Source: Allokutzneria sp. NRRL B-24872
GTDB taxonomy: Bacteria > Actinomycetota > Actinomycetes > Mycobacteriales > Pseudonocardiaceae
Direction: 5' to 3'
NCBI RefSeq assembly: GCF_002155965.1
Contig: NZ_MUMH01000048.1
Coordinates: forward strand, 62,001-126,000
Length of the DNA: 64,000 nucleotides
Made by a program: the position numbers and the translations under genes. The first letter of the stretch is position 1, and the number at the start of each line of letters is the position of its first letter. Below are positions 45,143 to 52,747 of the stretch, in pieces. The notes under the pieces are model-generated. The model had not been told where the DNA came from, searched no databases, and saw only the letters and a list, made by a program, of their open reading frames with translations.

Positions 45143-46405
45143 CTACAGCCGAACGGGAAGCGCGACCGGGGTGCGGAACAGGTAGTCCGGGTCGTAGTCG
45201 GCCTCCGGCCCCGGCAGCGCGAGCCGCATGTCCGGGAAGCGCTCCCGCAGCACGCTCAGCGCCGCGCCGATCTCCAACCGGGATACCTCGCGGCCGATGC
45301 ACAGGTGCGGTCCCGCGCCGAAGGTCAGCGGCTTGGGTTCCTTGCGCTCCGCCCGGTCGAGCCGAATCCGGTGCGGCTGCTGGAAGTGCTCGGGGTCGCG
45401 GTTGGCCGCGCCGAGCATCACCAGGATCTGCCCGCCCGCCGGGATCTCGGAGTCGCCGAGCCGCACCGCGTCCTTGGCCTTGCGCTTCCAGCCGGTGAGT
45501 CCGGTCTCGACGCGCATCAGCTCGTTGCTCAGCGTGGGCACGATCTCCTTGTCCTGCAAGGCTTCCCAGTGCTCCCGCCCGTCTTCGGCGAGCAGGTAGC
45601 GCATGGCGTTGAGCAGCGTTCCGTAGGTCGTGGAGTAGCCGGCGGCCATGGTGTTCATCAGCACCGCCGCCGCGCGCTTCTCCGGAAGCCCTTGGCGCAG
45701 AAGGTGACTGGCCATGTCCTCGGCCGGGGTCCGCACCCGCTCGGCGACCAGGCGCCTGCACGCGCGCGACAGATCGCTGAGCCCGCGCACACCCGAGACC
45801 TGGCCGGGCCGGTCGAGCACGCGGCCGAGCAACGAGGTCTGGCCGTCGCTCCACGAGCGCACGCGCTCCTCGTCGGACTCGGCGAAACCGACGATCTCGC
45901 TGATGATCCCGGCCGACAGCGGGCGTGCGAAGACCGCCGCGAAGTCCACCGCGTCATCGTTTGCCGATAACTTCTCGACGTCGTCGGCGACCGCGGCGAC
46001 GCGGCGCCGGATCAGCTCGCCGAAGCTCTCCTCGGTGGTGGCGGGGCTCAGCGAGAGGCCGCCGGGCGGGGCGAACACGGCGCGCCGCACGGCCTCGTGC
46101 GCGGCACCTCCCGAGTTCGCGGTCGCCTTCGGGACGCCGACGAGGTGCACCAGGCTGGACCACGTCCCCGGATTGGCGGCGAAGCGCCCCATCGGGGTGA
46201 GCGGGTCCAGGGTGTTGGCGTTGGTCACCCCGGGATCGGCGCCCTTGAGGACGTTCTCGACGAACTCGTAGCGCCACACCGGGTACAGCTGGGAGTCCGC
46301 GTCGCGGAAGGTCCCGAGCCCGGAGGCGTGCAGCCGGTCGTACAGGTCCGCCAGCGGTCTGGGCGCGTGGGCCCCCGGGTCGGTCAGCGGCAGTCGCCAG
46401 GTCAT
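45143..46405 (-). CDS. Cytochrome P450 with non-acidic I-helix
   Basis: 420 aa, a soluble bacterial P450. Haem-binding loop FGAGPHLCIGREV (Cys ligand), ExxR in NELMRVET, and I-helix MAAGYSTTYGTLL. The I-helix acid of the usual A/G-G-x-D/E-T-T is replaced by Ser (AGYSTT), which should alter proton delivery; such variants can be peroxide-using or substrate-assisted. ATG at 46405 gives a normal start (MTWRLPLTDPG). There is no ferredoxin gene beside it. It is divergent from the SARP pair, suggesting a small specialised-metabolism insert. Confidence 0.9.
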   Translation of the reverse strand: MTWRLPLTDPGAHAPRPLADLYDRLHASGLGTFRDADSQLYPVWRYEFVENVLKGADPGVTNANTLDPLTPMGRFAANPGTWSSLVHLVGVPKATANSGGAAHEAVRRAVFAPPGGLSLSPATTEESFGELIRRRVAAVADDVEKLSANDDAVDFAAVFARPLSAGIISEIVGFAESDEERVRSWSDGQTSLLGRVLDRPGQVSGVRGLSDLSRACRRLVAERVRTPAEDMASHLLRQGLPEKRAAAVLMNTMAAGYSTTYGTLLNAMRYLLAEDGREHWEALQDKEIVPTLSNELMRVETGLTGWKRKAKDAVRLGDSEIPAGGQILVMLGAANRDPEHFQQPHRIRLDRAERKEPKPLTFGAGPHLCIGREVSRLEIGAALSVLRERFPDMRLALPGPEADYDPDYLFRTPVALPVRL

Positions 46406-46863
46406 GCGGCCCCCAGGGTGCGTCGCGGAAGTGCGGCGGAGGCTAACACTGGCAAATGCCCAAATGGAACAGTTCAGATACCGCCGAAAGCAGTAATGAG
46501 AGCGACCCGCGCCTGGTATCCCCCCTGGCGCGGGCCACCCTCGTTTCCCTCGTGACCGCGGTGTCCAGCACCGGTTCATGGCTACCGGCACTCGTCCCCG
46601 GATCACCGCCTCCCCGCGTACGGGCCGTCGACGCGAAGAGGCGGGTGCGCCGGGCGATCCAGGCTGGGGGACCTGGGAAAGCCCGGTGAGGGAAATCCGT
46701 GGCGGGGAAGGTCATTGGATGGCCCGCACCGAGTCCCCCCGGCTCCTGTGCGGGCCATCCCTCCCCCACGACGAGAAGCTTCTCAGCCGGTTCTGTCGTA
46801 TCGCTGACGTCGTGGTGACGCGGCTTAGGATCTGCCGGGGCCGTCGCGTGGGGGAGGACGAAC
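46406..46863. other. Intergenic region between the P450 and SARP genes
   Basis: 458 bp with no gene I can support. The first 100 bases are AT-richer than the surroundings. Inverted repeats lie at 46506-46534 (CCCGCGCC/GGCGCGGG) and 46717-46760. A possible promoter (TAGGAT -10) lies near the right end before GGGGGAGG. A 77-codon plus-strand frame from 46456 has no ribosome site and atypical composition, so it is not called. Confidence 0.5.
46717..46760. promoter_or_regulatory. 13-bp inverted repeat upstream of the first SARP gene
   Basis: GGATGGCCCGCAC (46717-46729) pairs perfectly with GTGCGGGCCATCC (46748-46760) across an 18-bp loop, about 100 bp before the GTG. It could be an operator or a terminator protecting the SARP promoter. 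Confidence 0.4.
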
Positions 46864-48129
46864 GTGCACACGATCTTCCGGGTCCTCGGACCGCTGGAGA
46901 TCGCCAGGGGCGAGGAGCCGGTGCCGCTGCGCCCGGCGAAGCAGCGCGCGCTGTTGGCCGTGCTGCTGTTGCGCGCCAACGTGGTCGTGCCGGTGGCCAC
47001 CCTGGTGGACTGCCTCTGGGAGGACTCCCCGCCCGCCGGGGCCAAGGGCACCGTGCAGGCGTACGTGATGCGGATGCGGCAGGCCATCGGCGACCAGGAC
47101 GCGCAGCTGGTCAAGACGCGTCCCGACGGCTACGTGCTGGAGACCGCCGCCGAGAACGTGGACCTGCACCACTTCCACGCCCTCGTCACCCGCGCGCAGG
47201 CTTCGCGCGACACTGCGGAGCGGGCCGCGACGCTGCGCGAGGCCGTCGGGCTCTGGCGCGGTCCGCTGCTCGACGACGTCGGCGGCGTCGCGCTGCGCGA
47301 GCGCATCCCGGACATCCCGATCCACTCCGAGGCGCGGTTGCAGGCGCTGGAGCAGTGCTTCGACGCCGAACTCCAGCTCGGCGGGCACCACGACCTGCTC
47401 GACGAACTGCACTCCGTGACGGCCGCGCACCCGCTCCGGGAACGGTTCTGGGGCCAGCTGATGATCGCCCTCTACCGCGCGCACCGCCGGGATGCCGCGC
47501 TCGCCGCCTACGACGAGGTGTCCCGGCGCCTCGCCGACGAGCTGGGCATCGACACCGGCGCGGAGATCCGCGCGCTGCGCGACCGCATCCGGGACGACGA
47601 CTTTCCCCTTGCGCCACAAGCACCTCGCGCCTCGGCGGTGGTGCCGTCACAGCTGCCCGCCGACCCCGGCGAGCTGCCCGGGCGCACGGAGCTGGTCGAC
47701 GAGATCACCAAGCTCCTGGTGAACCCCGACGAGCGGCCGACCGTGCCGCTGGTGGTGCTGACCGGCAGCCCGGACGGCGGCCGGTCGGAGCTGGCCGCGC
47801 GGATCGCCCACCGGGCCCGCCACGCCTTCCCCGGCGGTCAGTTGCACGCCGCCCTGCACACCGATACCGCGAGCGTCCTGGTCGGTTTCCTGCACGCGCT
47901 CGGCGTCCGCGAGGAGCAGGTGCCTCCGGAGCCCGAGGAGCGCACGGCGCTCTACCGCTCCCTGCTGGCCAACCGCCGCGTGCTCGTGGTGCTGGACTCG
48001 GTCGCCGACCCCGACCAAGTCCGGCCCCTGCTGCCCGGTGACTCCGGCTGCGCGATGCTCGTGACCAGCGAGAACGACCTCCGTGGACTGACCGCCCTGC
48101 ACAGCGCACGCCAGTTCCGCACGCAGTAG
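46864..48129 (+). CDS. SARP-type regulator with truncated, degenerate NB-ARC domain
   Basis: 421 aa. The N-terminal winged helix is FRVLGPLEIARGEEPVPLRPAKQRALLAVLLLRAN, with recognition region GTVQAYVMRMRQAIG. The bacterial transcriptional activation domain (BTAD) runs to about 245. The start of an NB-ARC domain follows, with its P-loop reading LTGSPDGGRSELA instead of GxxGxGKT, so the Lys is missing. The chain stops soon after LVTSENDLRG, lacking winged-helix and TPR parts. It probably acts as a DNA-binding activator without ATP switching. GTG at 46864 has GGGGGAGG. The homologous full-length gene follows after 10 bp. Confidence 0.85.
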   Translation: MHTIFRVLGPLEIARGEEPVPLRPAKQRALLAVLLLRANVVVPVATLVDCLWEDSPPAGAKGTVQAYVMRMRQAIGDQDAQLVKTRPDGYVLETAAENVDLHHFHALVTRAQASRDTAERAATLREAVGLWRGPLLDDVGGVALRERIPDIPIHSEARLQALEQCFDAELQLGGHHDLLDELHSVTAAHPLRERFWGQLMIALYRAHRRDAALAAYDEVSRRLADELGIDTGAEIRALRDRIRDDDFPLAPQAPRASAVVPSQLPADPGELPGRTELVDEITKLLVNPDERPTVPLVVLTGSPDGGRSELAARIAHRARHAFPGGQLHAALHTDTASVLVGFLHALGVREEQVPPEPEERTALYRSLLANRRVLVVLDSVADPDQVRPLLPGDSGCAMLVTSENDLRGLTALHSARQFRTQ

Positions 48130-48139
48130 CGTTCGGTGC

Positions 48140-51100
48140 GTGAGTGGGGGAATCGAGTTCCGCATCCTGGGTCCGTTCGACATCACCCGCGACGGCGCGC
48201 CCGTGCCGGTGGCCGCGACGAAGCACCGGGTGCTGCTGGCGCGCCTGCTCGCCGACGCGAACCAGGTCGTTCCAGTCGCCAGGCTCGTCGAGTGCCTGTG
48301 GGACAACGACCCGCCCGTGACGGCGCGTGCCGTCGTGCACACCTACGTCAGCAGGCTGCGGCAGGCGCTCGGTTCGGCTGAGCTGATCGAGACGCTGCCC
48401 AACGGCTACCGCGCCGTCGTCCGCGACGACCAGCTCGACCTGCTCCGATTCCGCTCACTGGTCCGGCTCAGCCGCCAAGCGCGCGATCCCGTCGCCGAGT
48501 CCGCGCTGCTGCGCGAAGCCGCAGAGCTGTGGCGAGGTCCCGCGCTGGCGACCGTGCCCTCCGACGCGCTGCACGCCGACGCCACCCGGCTCGACCACGA
48601 GGAGATGGCCGCCGCCGACCGCCGCGTCGAGCTGGACCTGTCCCTCGGCCGCCACCACGACCTCGTTCCGCAGCTGCGCGCGATGGTGGCGCGTCGGCCG
48701 TTCAGCGAGCGCCCGCTCGGCCAGCTGATGCTCGCGCTGCACCGCAGTGGCCGCCAAGCCGACGCTCTGAGCGCCTACCAGGAGTTCCGCGCGGCACTCG
48801 GTGCCGAGCCCGGCGTCGAGCTTCGCGAGCTGCACCAAGCGATCCTGCGCGGCGAGGACGAGTCACCCGCACCACCCACTCCGTCCACTTCGGACTGGAC
48901 CCCGGTCTCCCAGTTGCCGCCACGCGTCGGTGACTTCGTCGGGCGCTCCGACGAGCTGGCCACGATCTCCGGACTGCTCCGGCGTCGTGGTTCGCTGACC
49001 GCCCCGCTCGTCGTGCTCTCCGGCCCTCCCGGCGTCGGCAAGACCGCGCTCGCCGTCCACGCCGCGCACGAGCTGAAGCCCGATTTCCCCGACGGCCAGC
49101 TCTACGTCAACCTGCGCGGCTACTCCCCCGAACCCGCGCTCACCGCCGCGCAGGTGCTCCCCCAGTTCCTCCGCGCCCTCGGCGTCCCGCCCGAGCAGGT
49201 GCCGCTCGCCGAGCCGGAGCAGGCTTCGCTGTACCGCACCCTGCTGTCCGGCCGCCGCATCCTCGTCGTCCTCGACAACGCCTCCGCCGCCGAGCAGGCC
49301 CGCGCCCTCGCCCCCAGCTCCACGAGCTGCGCCACCGTCGTCACCAGCCGCAACACCCTCGGCGAACTCGTCTCGTCCACCGGCGCCCAACTCGTCCCCG
49401 TCGACGTCCTCGCCCGCGAGCCCGCGCTTCTCCTGCTGGAGCGCATCATCGGCCCCGGCGGCTCCCCCGAGGCCGCCGACACCCTCGTCGACCTCTGCGG
49501 CGCCCTTCCCCTCGCGCTGCGCATCGCCGCCGCCAACATCGCGTTCTCAGTCGACCGCGATCTCCATAATTACCTCGAACAACTTAGGTCGAAAAGCAGA
49601 CTCTCCTCGCTATCAATCGATGGGGATCGAGACGCCGCAGTAAGGTCAAGCTTCGAACTCTCGTACCAGCAGCTGAAACCAGAAACTAGACGCGTCTTTC
49701 GACTTCTGGGCTCAATGCTCGACACAAGCTTCACAAGTTACTCAACGGCCGCCCTCGCCAAAATTTCCATCCAGGCAGCAGAACGAGAACTGAATCTTCT
49801 CCACAGCGCCAATCTGATCGAAAAGAGTCCCATCGAACACTATCACCTGCACGACCTCATCCATTTGTACGCCCATGAAAAATGCATCAAGAACGAACAA
49901 AGGGATGCCATCAAGCAAGCCCATAGCGGGCTTATAGGCTACTACCTGCGGCAGATCCAGGAGGCAAATCTTGCAATCGATCTACCTCTTGGCCTGACGA
50001 CGGCAGACTACACGGGCCCCTGCGAGAATCTAAGCGAAGCCAGCCAAGCACTGTACTGGATAAATAATAATCTTGAAAACTTGCTTGCCGGCACGCTTCA
50101 GGGACAGACTCCGACATCCGCATACCTCGCGGTGTCCATGACAGGATACTTGCGCTCACAGCGAATGCTCAAGGAGCTGAAAAGAATTCTCTCCGCCGCA
50201 CTCGAGGCACCCCACGTCGACGACCACTGGCAACTCAGTTTCGAACTACTCACGAACAAAGGGCACCTTGACTTCACGCAGGGAAAATTCAACTCCGCGA
50301 TCGAGAACTACACGAACGCCAGACGACTACTACCAGAAACAGAACCGCAACAACACGCACGAATGACGCGCAACATCTCCTTGTGCTACCGCCATACCGG
50401 ACATCTCACCCACGCACTCAAGGAGCTTGTCGATCTCGAAAAACGCTCGGAGGGCACCTCCGTCGAGCTGAGCAAGGAACTAAAGCTGCGCGTTTCAAAC
50501 CAAGCTGGCGAAATACTCAACGCACTGGGGAGATTCCGAGAATCCGATCGACACTATCGAGAATCCCTCAACTTTCTGCCAAGAAGAGCAAAAAGTATCG
50601 ATCGCGCGCTCGCCATAGCTAACATGGCCGAGAATCTCATCGACCTTGGCGAGCTCGACGAAGCTGAGAGGCTCCTCAACGAGTCGACAAGCATTCAACG
50701 TGATATTGGATGGAACTTTCCGATCGTTCATTGCGCATATTACCTTCTCGAAATCCACTCAGCCCGCCGAGACAAAGTAGCAGCAAGAGACCTCACCCTG
50801 GAGCTACTGAACATATCACCCGAAGGCCGGGGAGATCACATGGCCGCTACCCGACTTCTCGGAATTTCGCTAGGGCTACTCACCTCCGGAGATGCCACTA
50901 GCGCAATTCGCAGTTACGAAGAAGCACTAGACACCTGCAGAAAGATCTCACTCAAGACAAGCGAGATTGATTCCCTCCTCGGTCTCGCAAACGCGCTCAA
51001 CGAGACGAGGGATGCCGAGCGAGCCCTACAGGTAAGCATTGAAGCGCACAAAATTTCGCATAAAACCTCGCATCAAGCCCACGTAGCGCGGTCTCTGCAA

Positions 51101-51358
51101 TCACAAGCCGAAAGCCTACTACAAATACGGAAAGTCAAGGACTCTTACGCCACCGCAAGTGCGGCCGTAACCCTCCATCGCGATTGCGGAAGCAAACTAG
51201 AACTCGCGCGAAGCCTTCGAACTCTCGGCACAGCGGCAGCAGCTCTCGGCAAGACTTGCCACGCAAATGAATCGTGGACGGAATCCTCGCTCCTATTCAG
51301 TTCCATGAACATTCCAGGTGCGAACGAACTTCGCGCGTTGATCGAGGAGAACCGGTGA
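48140..51358 (+). CDS. AfsR/SARP-family regulator, SARP-NB-ARC-TPR, composition chimera
   Basis: 1072 aa. DNA-binding winged helix (1-95), BTAD (to about 245), NB-ARC with intact Walker A LSGPPGVGKTA (about 293), Walker B ILVVLDN, VVTSRN sensor and CGALPLALRIAA, then a winged helix and a TPR-rich C-terminus (about 640-1070, e.g. YTNARRLLPE, HYRESLNFLP, SYEEALDTCRK). AfsR-like proteins couple a signal to antibiotic gene activation. G/C content breaks sharply near codon 470: a 60-base line at 49441 has 47 G/C, one at 49561 has 26. The reading frame stays open throughout, and I saw no in-frame TTA. GTG at 48140. Confidence 0.88.
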   Translation: MSGGIEFRILGPFDITRDGAPVPVAATKHRVLLARLLADANQVVPVARLVECLWDNDPPVTARAVVHTYVSRLRQALGSAELIETLPNGYRAVVRDDQLDLLRFRSLVRLSRQARDPVAESALLREAAELWRGPALATVPSDALHADATRLDHEEMAAADRRVELDLSLGRHHDLVPQLRAMVARRPFSERPLGQLMLALHRSGRQADALSAYQEFRAALGAEPGVELRELHQAILRGEDESPAPPTPSTSDWTPVSQLPPRVGDFVGRSDELATISGLLRRRGSLTAPLVVLSGPPGVGKTALAVHAAHELKPDFPDGQLYVNLRGYSPEPALTAAQVLPQFLRALGVPPEQVPLAEPEQASLYRTLLSGRRILVVLDNASAAEQARALAPSSTSCATVVTSRNTLGELVSSTGAQLVPVDVLAREPALLLLERIIGPGGSPEAADTLVDLCGALPLALRIAAANIAFSVDRDLHNYLEQLRSKSRLSSLSIDGDRDAAVRSSFELSYQQLKPETRRVFRLLGSMLDTSFTSYSTAALAKISIQAAERELNLLHSANLIEKSPIEHYHLHDLIHLYAHEKCIKNEQRDAIKQAHSGLIGYYLRQIQEANLAIDLPLGLTTADYTGPCENLSEASQALYWINNNLENLLAGTLQGQTPTSAYLAVSMTGYLRSQRMLKELKRILSAALEAPHVDDHWQLSFELLTNKGHLDFTQGKFNSAIENYTNARRLLPETEPQQHARMTRNISLCYRHTGHLTHALKELVDLEKRSEGTSVELSKELKLRVSNQAGEILNALGRFRESDRHYRESLNFLPRRAKSIDRALAIANMAENLIDLGELDEAERLLNESTSIQRDIGWNFPIVHCAYYLLEIHSARRDKVAARDLTLELLNISPEGRGDHMAATRLLGISLGLLTSGDATSAIRSYEEALDTCRKISLKTSEIDSLLGLANALNETRDAERALQVSIEAHKISHKTSHQAHVARSLQSQAESLLQIRKVKDSYATASAAVTLHRDCGSKLELARSLRTLGTAAAALGKTCHANESWTESSLLFSSMNIPGANELRALIEENR
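49550..51358 (+). other. Low-GC segment within the AfsR-like gene
   Basis: From about 49550 to the stop codon, A/T-ending codons and AGA, ATA and CTA become frequent, unlike any other long coding stretch in the window. The boundary is abrupt and falls inside the NB-ARC domain after CGALPLALRIAAANIAF. It ends exactly with the gene; the downstream peptidase gene is again GC-rich. This points to acquisition of the sensory half from a lower-GC source or an unusual mutational history. Confidence 0.8.
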
Positions 51359-52747
51359 TCAGCCGAAGGTCTTGCGGAGGAACTGGCCCCAGCCTCGGAT
51401 GATCTCGGCGCGGTCGGTGTCGAGGACGTCGCGCAGGACGCCGTCGACCACGCCGTCGGGGACGCGGCCGACTCCGGCGAGGCGGCGGTAGAGCTCGACG
51501 ACCTTGGCCTCGCCGTACTGCTGCGACAGGAACAGCATCGTGGTCCACGCCGTCTGGTAGGCGAGGTCGAGGCGGCTGCCGCCCGCGCGGAAGTCGGCGT
51601 CGGAGGGCAGTGCGAGCGGCGGACCGGAGAGGCGCAGCTGCTTGGCGAGGTCGGGGGCGGCCTCGCGCGGGGAGATGCCGCTGTCGCGGTAACCGACGTA
51701 GTCGGCGAAGCCCTCCAACAGCCACATGGGGGCGCCGTCGACGGTGTCGGAGCGGGCGGCGATGTGGGTGATCTCGTGGCGGAGGACTACGCGCAGCGAA
51801 CTGGCGGACAGCCGGGTTGCGGTGCGCGGGTTGAAGACCACGCGAGCGCCTTCGACGATGTCGCTGTCATGGTCGACGCGGTCGGCGACGGCGACGGCCG
51901 CGATGGCGTCAACGGCGAACTCGGTGCCGACCATGGCCTGCAACTCGGCGGTGGTCTCGGGCAGCATCACGGCGACGCGTTGGGTCCACTGTTGGCCCCA
52001 CACCTCGGAAACCGCGCGGATCGCGGCGTCCAGCTCACCGGCGACGCGGTTGGCGAGCGCCTGGTTGCCGCCGTGGCTGAGGACGATCCCGAACTCGGTC
52101 TTGTCGACGCGGCAGTGCCCGAAGTCCCACGGGCCACGCCACGTCTTGCGACCGCGATCGGCCAGCGCGGTGTCCGAAGTGAGGTACCAGTCGCTGCCGC
52201 GGCGGGCGAAGAGATAGCCCATGGGGCGGCTGGTCGCGGCGCGGTCGACGCCGTCGAAGGCGTAGCTCAGCTCGACGCGCGGCGCCCACAGCTCGTCGGG
52301 CGGGCGTTCGCCGAAGAGGGAGTCCAGCTCGCCGAGGGAGTCGGTGGAGTCGATCCGGTAGCGCCACTCGCGCAGCGGAACCCCGCGCAGATTGGCGAAG
52401 ACCGCCTGCTGCGTCGCGAGGAACTTCGAGTCGGCGAGCGGGTCCAGGGTGCTCATGAACGCGGAGAGGTCGCGGCTCTGCACCGCGTCGGCCCGGCGCC
52501 GGAGCAGGTCGGTGACCGAGGAGATCCGGCTGCGGCCCAGCTCCACGGAGGGCTCGACGGCCGGTTCGGGCGGGGCCGGGCGGGCGTTGGGGTCCAGCGA
52601 GGGGGCGGTCTGCTCGGCGGGCGCGACGGGATCGGCCGCTGGCAGGGACACGACCGTCAGCCCCGCGAGGAGGACGGCGGCGACCGCCGCGGCCAACCAG
52701 TTCCGATAGCGGCCCTGCCAGCTCACCCTCGAATCGTAGGGCCACAC
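51359..52747 (-). CDS. Membrane-anchored zinc metallopeptidase-like protein
   Basis: 462 aa. Short cytoplasmic start, one membrane helix (WLAAAVAAVLLAGLTVVSL), a Pro/Ala-rich linker, a domain of about 180 aa resembling a nuclear-transport-factor-2-type fold (LRRRADAVQSRDLSAFMSTLDPLADSKF), then a gluzincin-like peptidase domain with VVLRHEITHIAAR (HExxH) and the downstream Glu in WLLEGFADYVGYRD. The active site faces outside the cell. Its stop lies next to that of the AfsR-like gene. ATG at 52747 or GTG at 52726. The substrate is unknown; envelope proteins are likely. Confidence 0.8.
   Translation of the reverse strand: MWPYDSRVSWQGRYRNWLAAAVAAVLLAGLTVVSLPAADPVAPAEQTAPSLDPNARPAPPEPAVEPSVELGRSRISSVTDLLRRRADAVQSRDLSAFMSTLDPLADSKFLATQQAVFANLRGVPLREWRYRIDSTDSLGELDSLFGERPPDELWAPRVELSYAFDGVDRAATSRPMGYLFARRGSDWYLTSDTALADRGRKTWRGPWDFGHCRVDKTEFGIVLSHGGNQALANRVAGELDAAIRAVSEVWGQQWTQRVAVMLPETTAELQAMVGTEFAVDAIAAVAVADRVDHDSDIVEGARVVFNPRTATRLSASSLRVVLRHEITHIAARSDTVDGAPMWLLEGFADYVGYRDSGISPREAAPDLAKQLRLSGPPLALPSDADFRAGGSRLDLAYQTAWTTMLFLSQQYGEAKVVELYRRLAGVGRVPDGVVDGVLRDVLDTDRAEIIRGWGQFLRKTFG

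Follow-up and report, generated by a model that had tools for sequence, protein, structure and literature searches.

AfsR-C, a regulator gene in the 64,000-nucleotide stretch of DNA analysed here (the window), which comes from the soil actinomycete Allokutzneria sp. NRRL B-24872, falls from 73% to 53% G+C at about codon 470 and is back at ~71% at its stop codon. Does this step mark the exchange of one part of the gene, and if so, in which lineage, and with what consequence for the regulator? The original prediction had read the gene as a chimera, with a native DNA-binding and ATP-binding front and a sensor half brought in by recombination. Feature coordinates are given in Table 1.

Table 1 Features of the AfsR-C locus, in window coordinates.
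Feature	Position	Strand	Basis or remark
Cytochrome P450 gene, divergent from AfsR-A, candidate regulated neighbour	45143..46606	-	~88% identical in genus
Putative SARP-type promoter of the AfsR-A/AfsR-C unit	46805..46831	+	Direct repeats TGACGTC / TGACGCG 11 bp apart, -10-like TAGGAT
AfsR-A, short SARP, 421 aa, truncated NTPase domain	46864..48129	+	Degenerate P-loop GSPDGGRSE
AfsR-C, large SARP (AfsR-type) regulator gene, probably chimeric	48140..51358	+	ORF, Pfam, solved-chain match
Native front: winged-helix DNA-binding domain, BTAD, NBD and helical domain, residues 1-470	48140..49548	+	73% G+C, 85% amino acid identity to G002
Front boundary, just beyond the GxP motif GALPLALR	49548	+	End of blastn match to G002
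5' breakpoint	49529..49567	+	G+C change-point interval; G002 DNA homology ends at 49548
Rear, probably replaced: winged-helix domain, arm and TPR sensor, residues ~471-1072	49549..51355	+	53% G+C, GC3 58%, no DNA match in G002
3' breakpoint	51313..51410	+	G+C change-point interval; homology to both congeners from stop codon 51356
Convergent BSP / peptidase MA-like gene, synteny anchor	51359..52747	-	94-95% identical in genus

The AfsR-C product

The AfsR-C reading frame runs from a GTG at 48140 to a TGA at 51358. Its 1072 codons contain no internal stop, and the frame is intact across the low-G+C half, as had been claimed. Pfam searches of the 1072-aa product returned a winged helix (Trans_reg_C, PF00486, residues 27-90), BTAD (PF03704, residues 99-236), an NB-ARC-type NTPase (AAA_16 at residues 266-363, NB-ARC at 274-510) and TPRs; the rear, searched alone, gave TPR_12 and other TPR matches. 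Inspection of the translation showed that functional motifs are intact on either side of the junction, namely the P-loop (GPPGVGKT) and the GxP motif (GALPLALR) in the front, and the HDL motif (residues 571-573, in the winged-helix domain) in the rear. The nearest solved chain was AfsR (8k60/8jke, E 1e-94, residues 2-655). An AlphaFold model made without an alignment had a mean pLDDT of 38. Judged by all sequence features checked (winged helix with BTAD, STAND/NOD NTPase, TPRs), AfsR-C is a large SARP.

Composition step

Change points in G+C were estimated by maximum likelihood, independently of homology. The first was placed at 49535 (2-lnL interval 49529-49567) and the second at 51374 (interval 51313-51410), with 53.0% G+C between them and a gain of ~113 lnL over a single composition. 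The remaining window has 71.1 ± 2.7% G+C per 600 bp, and the AfsR-C rear lies 6.6 SD lower. GC3 is 91% in the front and 58% in the rear. The codons AGA, ATA and CTA do not occur among the 469 front codons, and are used 9, 6 and 16 times (31 in total) among the 603 rear codons. Thus the composition described in the original prediction was found again: its line counts (47 of 60 G+C at 49441-49500, 26 of 60 at 49561-49620) were exact when counted by hand, the three codons are indeed confined to the rear, and the break near codon 470 is as sharp as stated. That description is refined by the return to native composition at the gene's end.

Front and rear of AfsR-C differ by 20.5 points of G+C, compared with 1.5 ± 2.0 points (maximum 7.3) in 89 other AfsR-type genes from three genomes. 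Family members fetched from outside the genus had no comparable sustained step. Since the other AfsR-type genes, both in the genus and among those fetched outside it, lack such a step, it is not a property of the family. It was also looked for as an ancestral trait, and no orthologue or paralogue shares it.

Homology break against the congeners

Three Allokutzneria species were compared, the window species (G000), G001 and Allokutzneria sp. A3M-2-11 16 (G002). The AfsR-C locus is syntenic in all three. Compared with its syntenic G002 orthologue, AfsR-C is 85% identical over residues 1-469 and 28% identical in the rear, which is unalignable as DNA. Identity per 30 residues ranges from 67 to 100% before residue 480 and is at most 30% beyond residue 540, and DNA identity falls at codon 470 from 0.93 to about 0.4-0.5. 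The blastn match to G002 covers 48121-49548 at 86%, and homology restarts at 51356, where the stop codon begins; this codon directly abuts the stop of the convergent peptidase gene (TGATCA). Homology break and composition break coincide at both ends of the rear, the 5' pair within ~15 bases.

AfsR-C is a mosaic, with parts that have different nearest relatives and meet at a sharp junction. Residues 1-470 were inherited vertically and are common to the same locus of the sister species, and residues ~471-1072, atypical in composition, are not orthologous to the sister's rear. Substitution rates in the front (dN 0.09, dS 0.31; winged helix 0.07/0.39; dN/dS ~0.2-0.3) indicate that it is under purifying selection.

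A survey of reciprocal-best AfsR-type fronts across the genus gave 62 orthologous pairs in 26 groups. The AfsR-C/G002 pair was the only one with discordant halves: front identity exceeds rear identity by 57 points, compared with 4.9 ± 4.8 points (maximum 13.6) in the other pairs. We give a probability of roughly 0.83 to the reading that AfsR-C is an AfsR/STAND-type large SARP made chimeric in the lineage of the window species by replacement of its rear.

Which lineage changed

G001 holds only a shrunken AfsR-C remnant without the rear, and therefore offers no third species by which the exchange could be polarised. Composition, together with the affinities of front and rear, indicates that the recipient was the lineage of the window species. 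The G002 rear is most similar to the rears of L095, L059 and L063; the fronts in the clades of these genes match the AfsR-C front at about 50% identity and are its nearest outside the genus. The AfsR-C rear is most similar to the rears of L032 and L033, and the fronts of these genes are just 41% identical to that of AfsR-C. Its A-rich third positions were matched by no other rear tabulated.

An exchange in the G002 lineage, with the low-G+C rear of AfsR-C being the ancestral one, would agree with the long branch (1.14) and the slightly low G+C (67%) of the G002 rear, and the rearless G001 remnant gives no polarity against it. We consider this improbable, because it is the AfsR-C rear that departs from its own front (rear-minus-front codon score z -12.9, with the drop in GC3 given above), whereas the G002 rear is near-native (GC3 85%, z -2.3) and has its nearest relatives in common with the front, which the AfsR-C rear does not. 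Both rears may also have been swapped, at separate times.

An extra SARP gene at this site, B, which has no TPRs, is intact in G001 and decayed in G002. Gene content thus differs between the three species, and the locus is turning over in all of them. Remnants lie at L090 11877-12631 and L089 10169-10482 (the decayed B of G002 and the AfsR-C remnant of G001).

Relatives of the two halves

The two halves do not group alike when examined separately, as the original prediction had proposed to do. In the front tree, AfsR-C and its G002 orthologue are sisters (support 100%, path 0.2). In the rear tree they are non-sisters, with end branches of 1.99 and 1.14; a rear-half clade of the two was not rejected by the AU test (p 0.32), both branches being very long. 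At such depth the rear topology is too weak, and the case was therefore built on the sharp edges, the similarity ranking and the composition. The best arm+TPR matches of AfsR-C were genes of other genera (up to 77 bits), and the G002 partner was match 69 of 111, with 9 bits. Orthologous rears that evolved fast would stay among each other's best matches, so this rank argues for replacement and not drift.

One rear could instead have diverged very fast without any exchange, through relaxed or diversifying selection on the TPRs together with local drift in composition. In distant homologues, TPR sensors do outpace fronts (identity ~50% for the front, 21-25% for the rear), and the AU result would be compatible with such divergence. 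We nevertheless regard it as very unlikely: both edges (49548 and the stop codon) are abrupt, the rears of the 61 other orthologous pairs lag by at most 14 points, the partner ranks low among the arm+TPR matches, and selection at the protein level does not yield a 20-point G+C step.

Search for a donor

No donor of the AfsR-C rear was found in 390 family genomes (best 29% identity), and none close to it in evenly drawn samples of the phylum (396 genomes) and the class (375 genomes). Nothing close was found in plasmids, phages and viral contigs either. The best protein relatives of the rear are 26-29% identical, and a scan of the genome contigs with the whole AfsR-C protein returned no relative. 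With no donor found, the case for a foreign origin rests on composition and affinity.

The own genome, a draft, contained no second DNA copy of the rear and no other protein match to it at E ≤ 1e-30. The rear is accompanied by no silent cassette and no clear bounding repeat, just by weak imperfect repeats, and a programmed switch (DGR or shufflon) is therefore unlikely. An intragenomic paralogue as the source, by gene conversion, has in its favour that dozens of AfsR-type fronts are present (43 matches), some genes forming tandem arrays, and that a donor paralogue could have been lost, the draft being ~95% complete. Against this stand the lack of any such copy or protein match, and of the A-rich third-position pattern in the tabulated rears, and we give conversion very little weight. 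An assembly or contamination artefact is hardly credible: the draft does consist of 475 contigs, with contamination estimated at 1.4%, but a misjoin would have had to happen twice, once in frame at a homologous codon and once at the stop codon, both times deep inside a 139-kb contig whose synteny is conserved to the left and to the right.

Other AfsR-type genes of the genus also depart from the genomic composition. L017 and L020 (G001/G002; first gene in the tandem array) are whole AfsR-type genes of ~60% G+C in genomes of ~71%, conserved between the two species. L003 (G000:C447:23923-27123) is the first of four tandem AfsR-type genes. It is syntenic with L017 of G001, and the first and last ~80 residues of the two are 62-79% identical, with a non-matching interior (12-57%). 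L003 is possibly a second mosaic and hints at recurrence. As a donor pool for the AfsR-C rear, the native low-G+C genes L017, L020 and L003 were rejected, since their rears differ (22-24% identity) and their third positions are G/T- or G/C-rich, not A-rich.

Neighbouring genes and promoter

The NTPase domain of AfsR-A, the gene preceding AfsR-C, ends abruptly. The gene is kept in all three species (81-83%, dN/dS ~0.33), and short genes like it (461-472 aa) adjoin large AfsR genes in several other family genomes. The operator-like repeats with 11-bp spacing upstream of AfsR-A/AfsR-C are conserved in the three-species alignment. The consensus spacing of SARP repeats was taken from PMC10936776, and the distance between repeats and -10 in the putative promoter varies with the repeat register chosen. 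The intergenic region between the P450 gene and AfsR-A (46607-46863) also carries an inverted repeat (GATGGCCCGCAC / GTGCGGGCCATC), which is largely conserved in the three species and is possibly a leader hairpin or an operator.

Exchanged unit and proposed consequence

The proposal that the rear was exchanged by recombination is strongly supported by the 85% identical front, the unalignable rear and the close fit of the break to the G+C step. What was exchanged is, however, more than a sensor half: the unit takes in the arm, the TPRs and the winged-helix domain (WHD), HDL motif included. The junction follows the GxP motif, which belongs to the NBD-helical module (GALPLALRIAAANIAFS), by about ten residues. 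At this strongly conserved motif (GALPLALRIAAANIA), AfsR-C would have undergone one crossover with a diverged AfsR-type gene; a 5' crossover within a motif that is conserved among AfsR genes would fit homologous recombination in which the partner was a diverged relative. The second crossover would lie at the stop codon or within ~14 codons before it, the conserved end of the convergent gene setting the limit. The incoming DNA would then encode the autoinhibition-plus-sensor unit in full, and its donor would be one that was not sampled.

Transfer of the whole WHD/arm/TPR block would keep the internal fit between lock and sensor, and only the interfaces with the NBD and the helical domain would need to be compatible. 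The analogy to AfsR, MalT and PH0952 suggests that the new block may keep the native NBD clamped in the ADP form and release it on binding its own inducer. The same analogy makes it plausible that the old promoters are now under a different signal, which is what the original prediction meant by "same promoter target, new signal".

A natural swap with its edge at a defined codon reveals which part is exchangeable without loss of frame, and marks WHD-arm-TPR as a single portable unit. To our knowledge, few large SARPs have a known ligand. AfsR-C and its G002 orthologue, alike in front and locus and different in their sensors, form a ready pair for finding sensor ligands, and may help to engineer regulators that switch on silent biosynthetic gene clusters. 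A wider reading, which we hold only tentatively and think rather doubtful, is that AfsR-type regulators of these actinomycetes evolve by repeated block replacement, with crossovers at the GxP motif and at the gene's 3' end and with WHD/arm/TPR as modules exchangeable between genes and organisms. If true, this would be a bacterial parallel of NLR sensor shuffling.

Comparison with known systems

The closest known system is AfsR of Streptomyces coelicolor (8k60/8jke), which has SARP effector, NOD and TPRs in the same order as AfsR-C; its SARP domain is inhibited by NOD and TPR, and ATP binding relieves this inhibition (PMC10936776). AfsR receives kinase input and acts as a global regulator, whereas AfsR-C belongs to a set of dozens of paralogues and its rear was probably replaced. 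The sequence match between them stops at residue 655, ahead of most TPRs.

The layout NBD-HD-WHD-arm-TPR is shared with MalT and PH0952, STAND ATPases with a TPR sensor, which according to the sections available to us serve as a model for the locking and releasing of the NBD by WHD, arm and TPRs (PMC6468293, PMC4381067). Where the sensor of a STAND protein is made of TPRs, it is described as keeping the NBD closed jointly with the arm and the winged-helix domain (PMC6468293). The effector domain of MalT and PH0952 differs from that of AfsR-C, and replacement of a sensor is not described in those sections (PMC6468293, PMC4381067).

Fungal and plant NLR receptors, as far as the available excerpts go, carry variable assortments of domains around a conserved NOD (PMC4986451, PMC12258605). 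AfsR-C differs from them: it is a predicted transcription activator from a bacterium, shows a single replacement whose edge lies at a defined codon, and has no tie to immunity. In the DGR-diversified STAND-type sensors of multicellular bacteria, the sensor is changed and the effector kept, as in AfsR-C, but the accessible part of that report concerns targeted hypermutation and not, as here, the replacement of a single 1.8-kb block (PMC10907252). No report of sensor-half exchange in SARPs was found in the open-access literature searched. Mosaic genes and sensor shuffling were already known; what is new here is a well-delimited natural replacement of the sensor unit in large SARPs.
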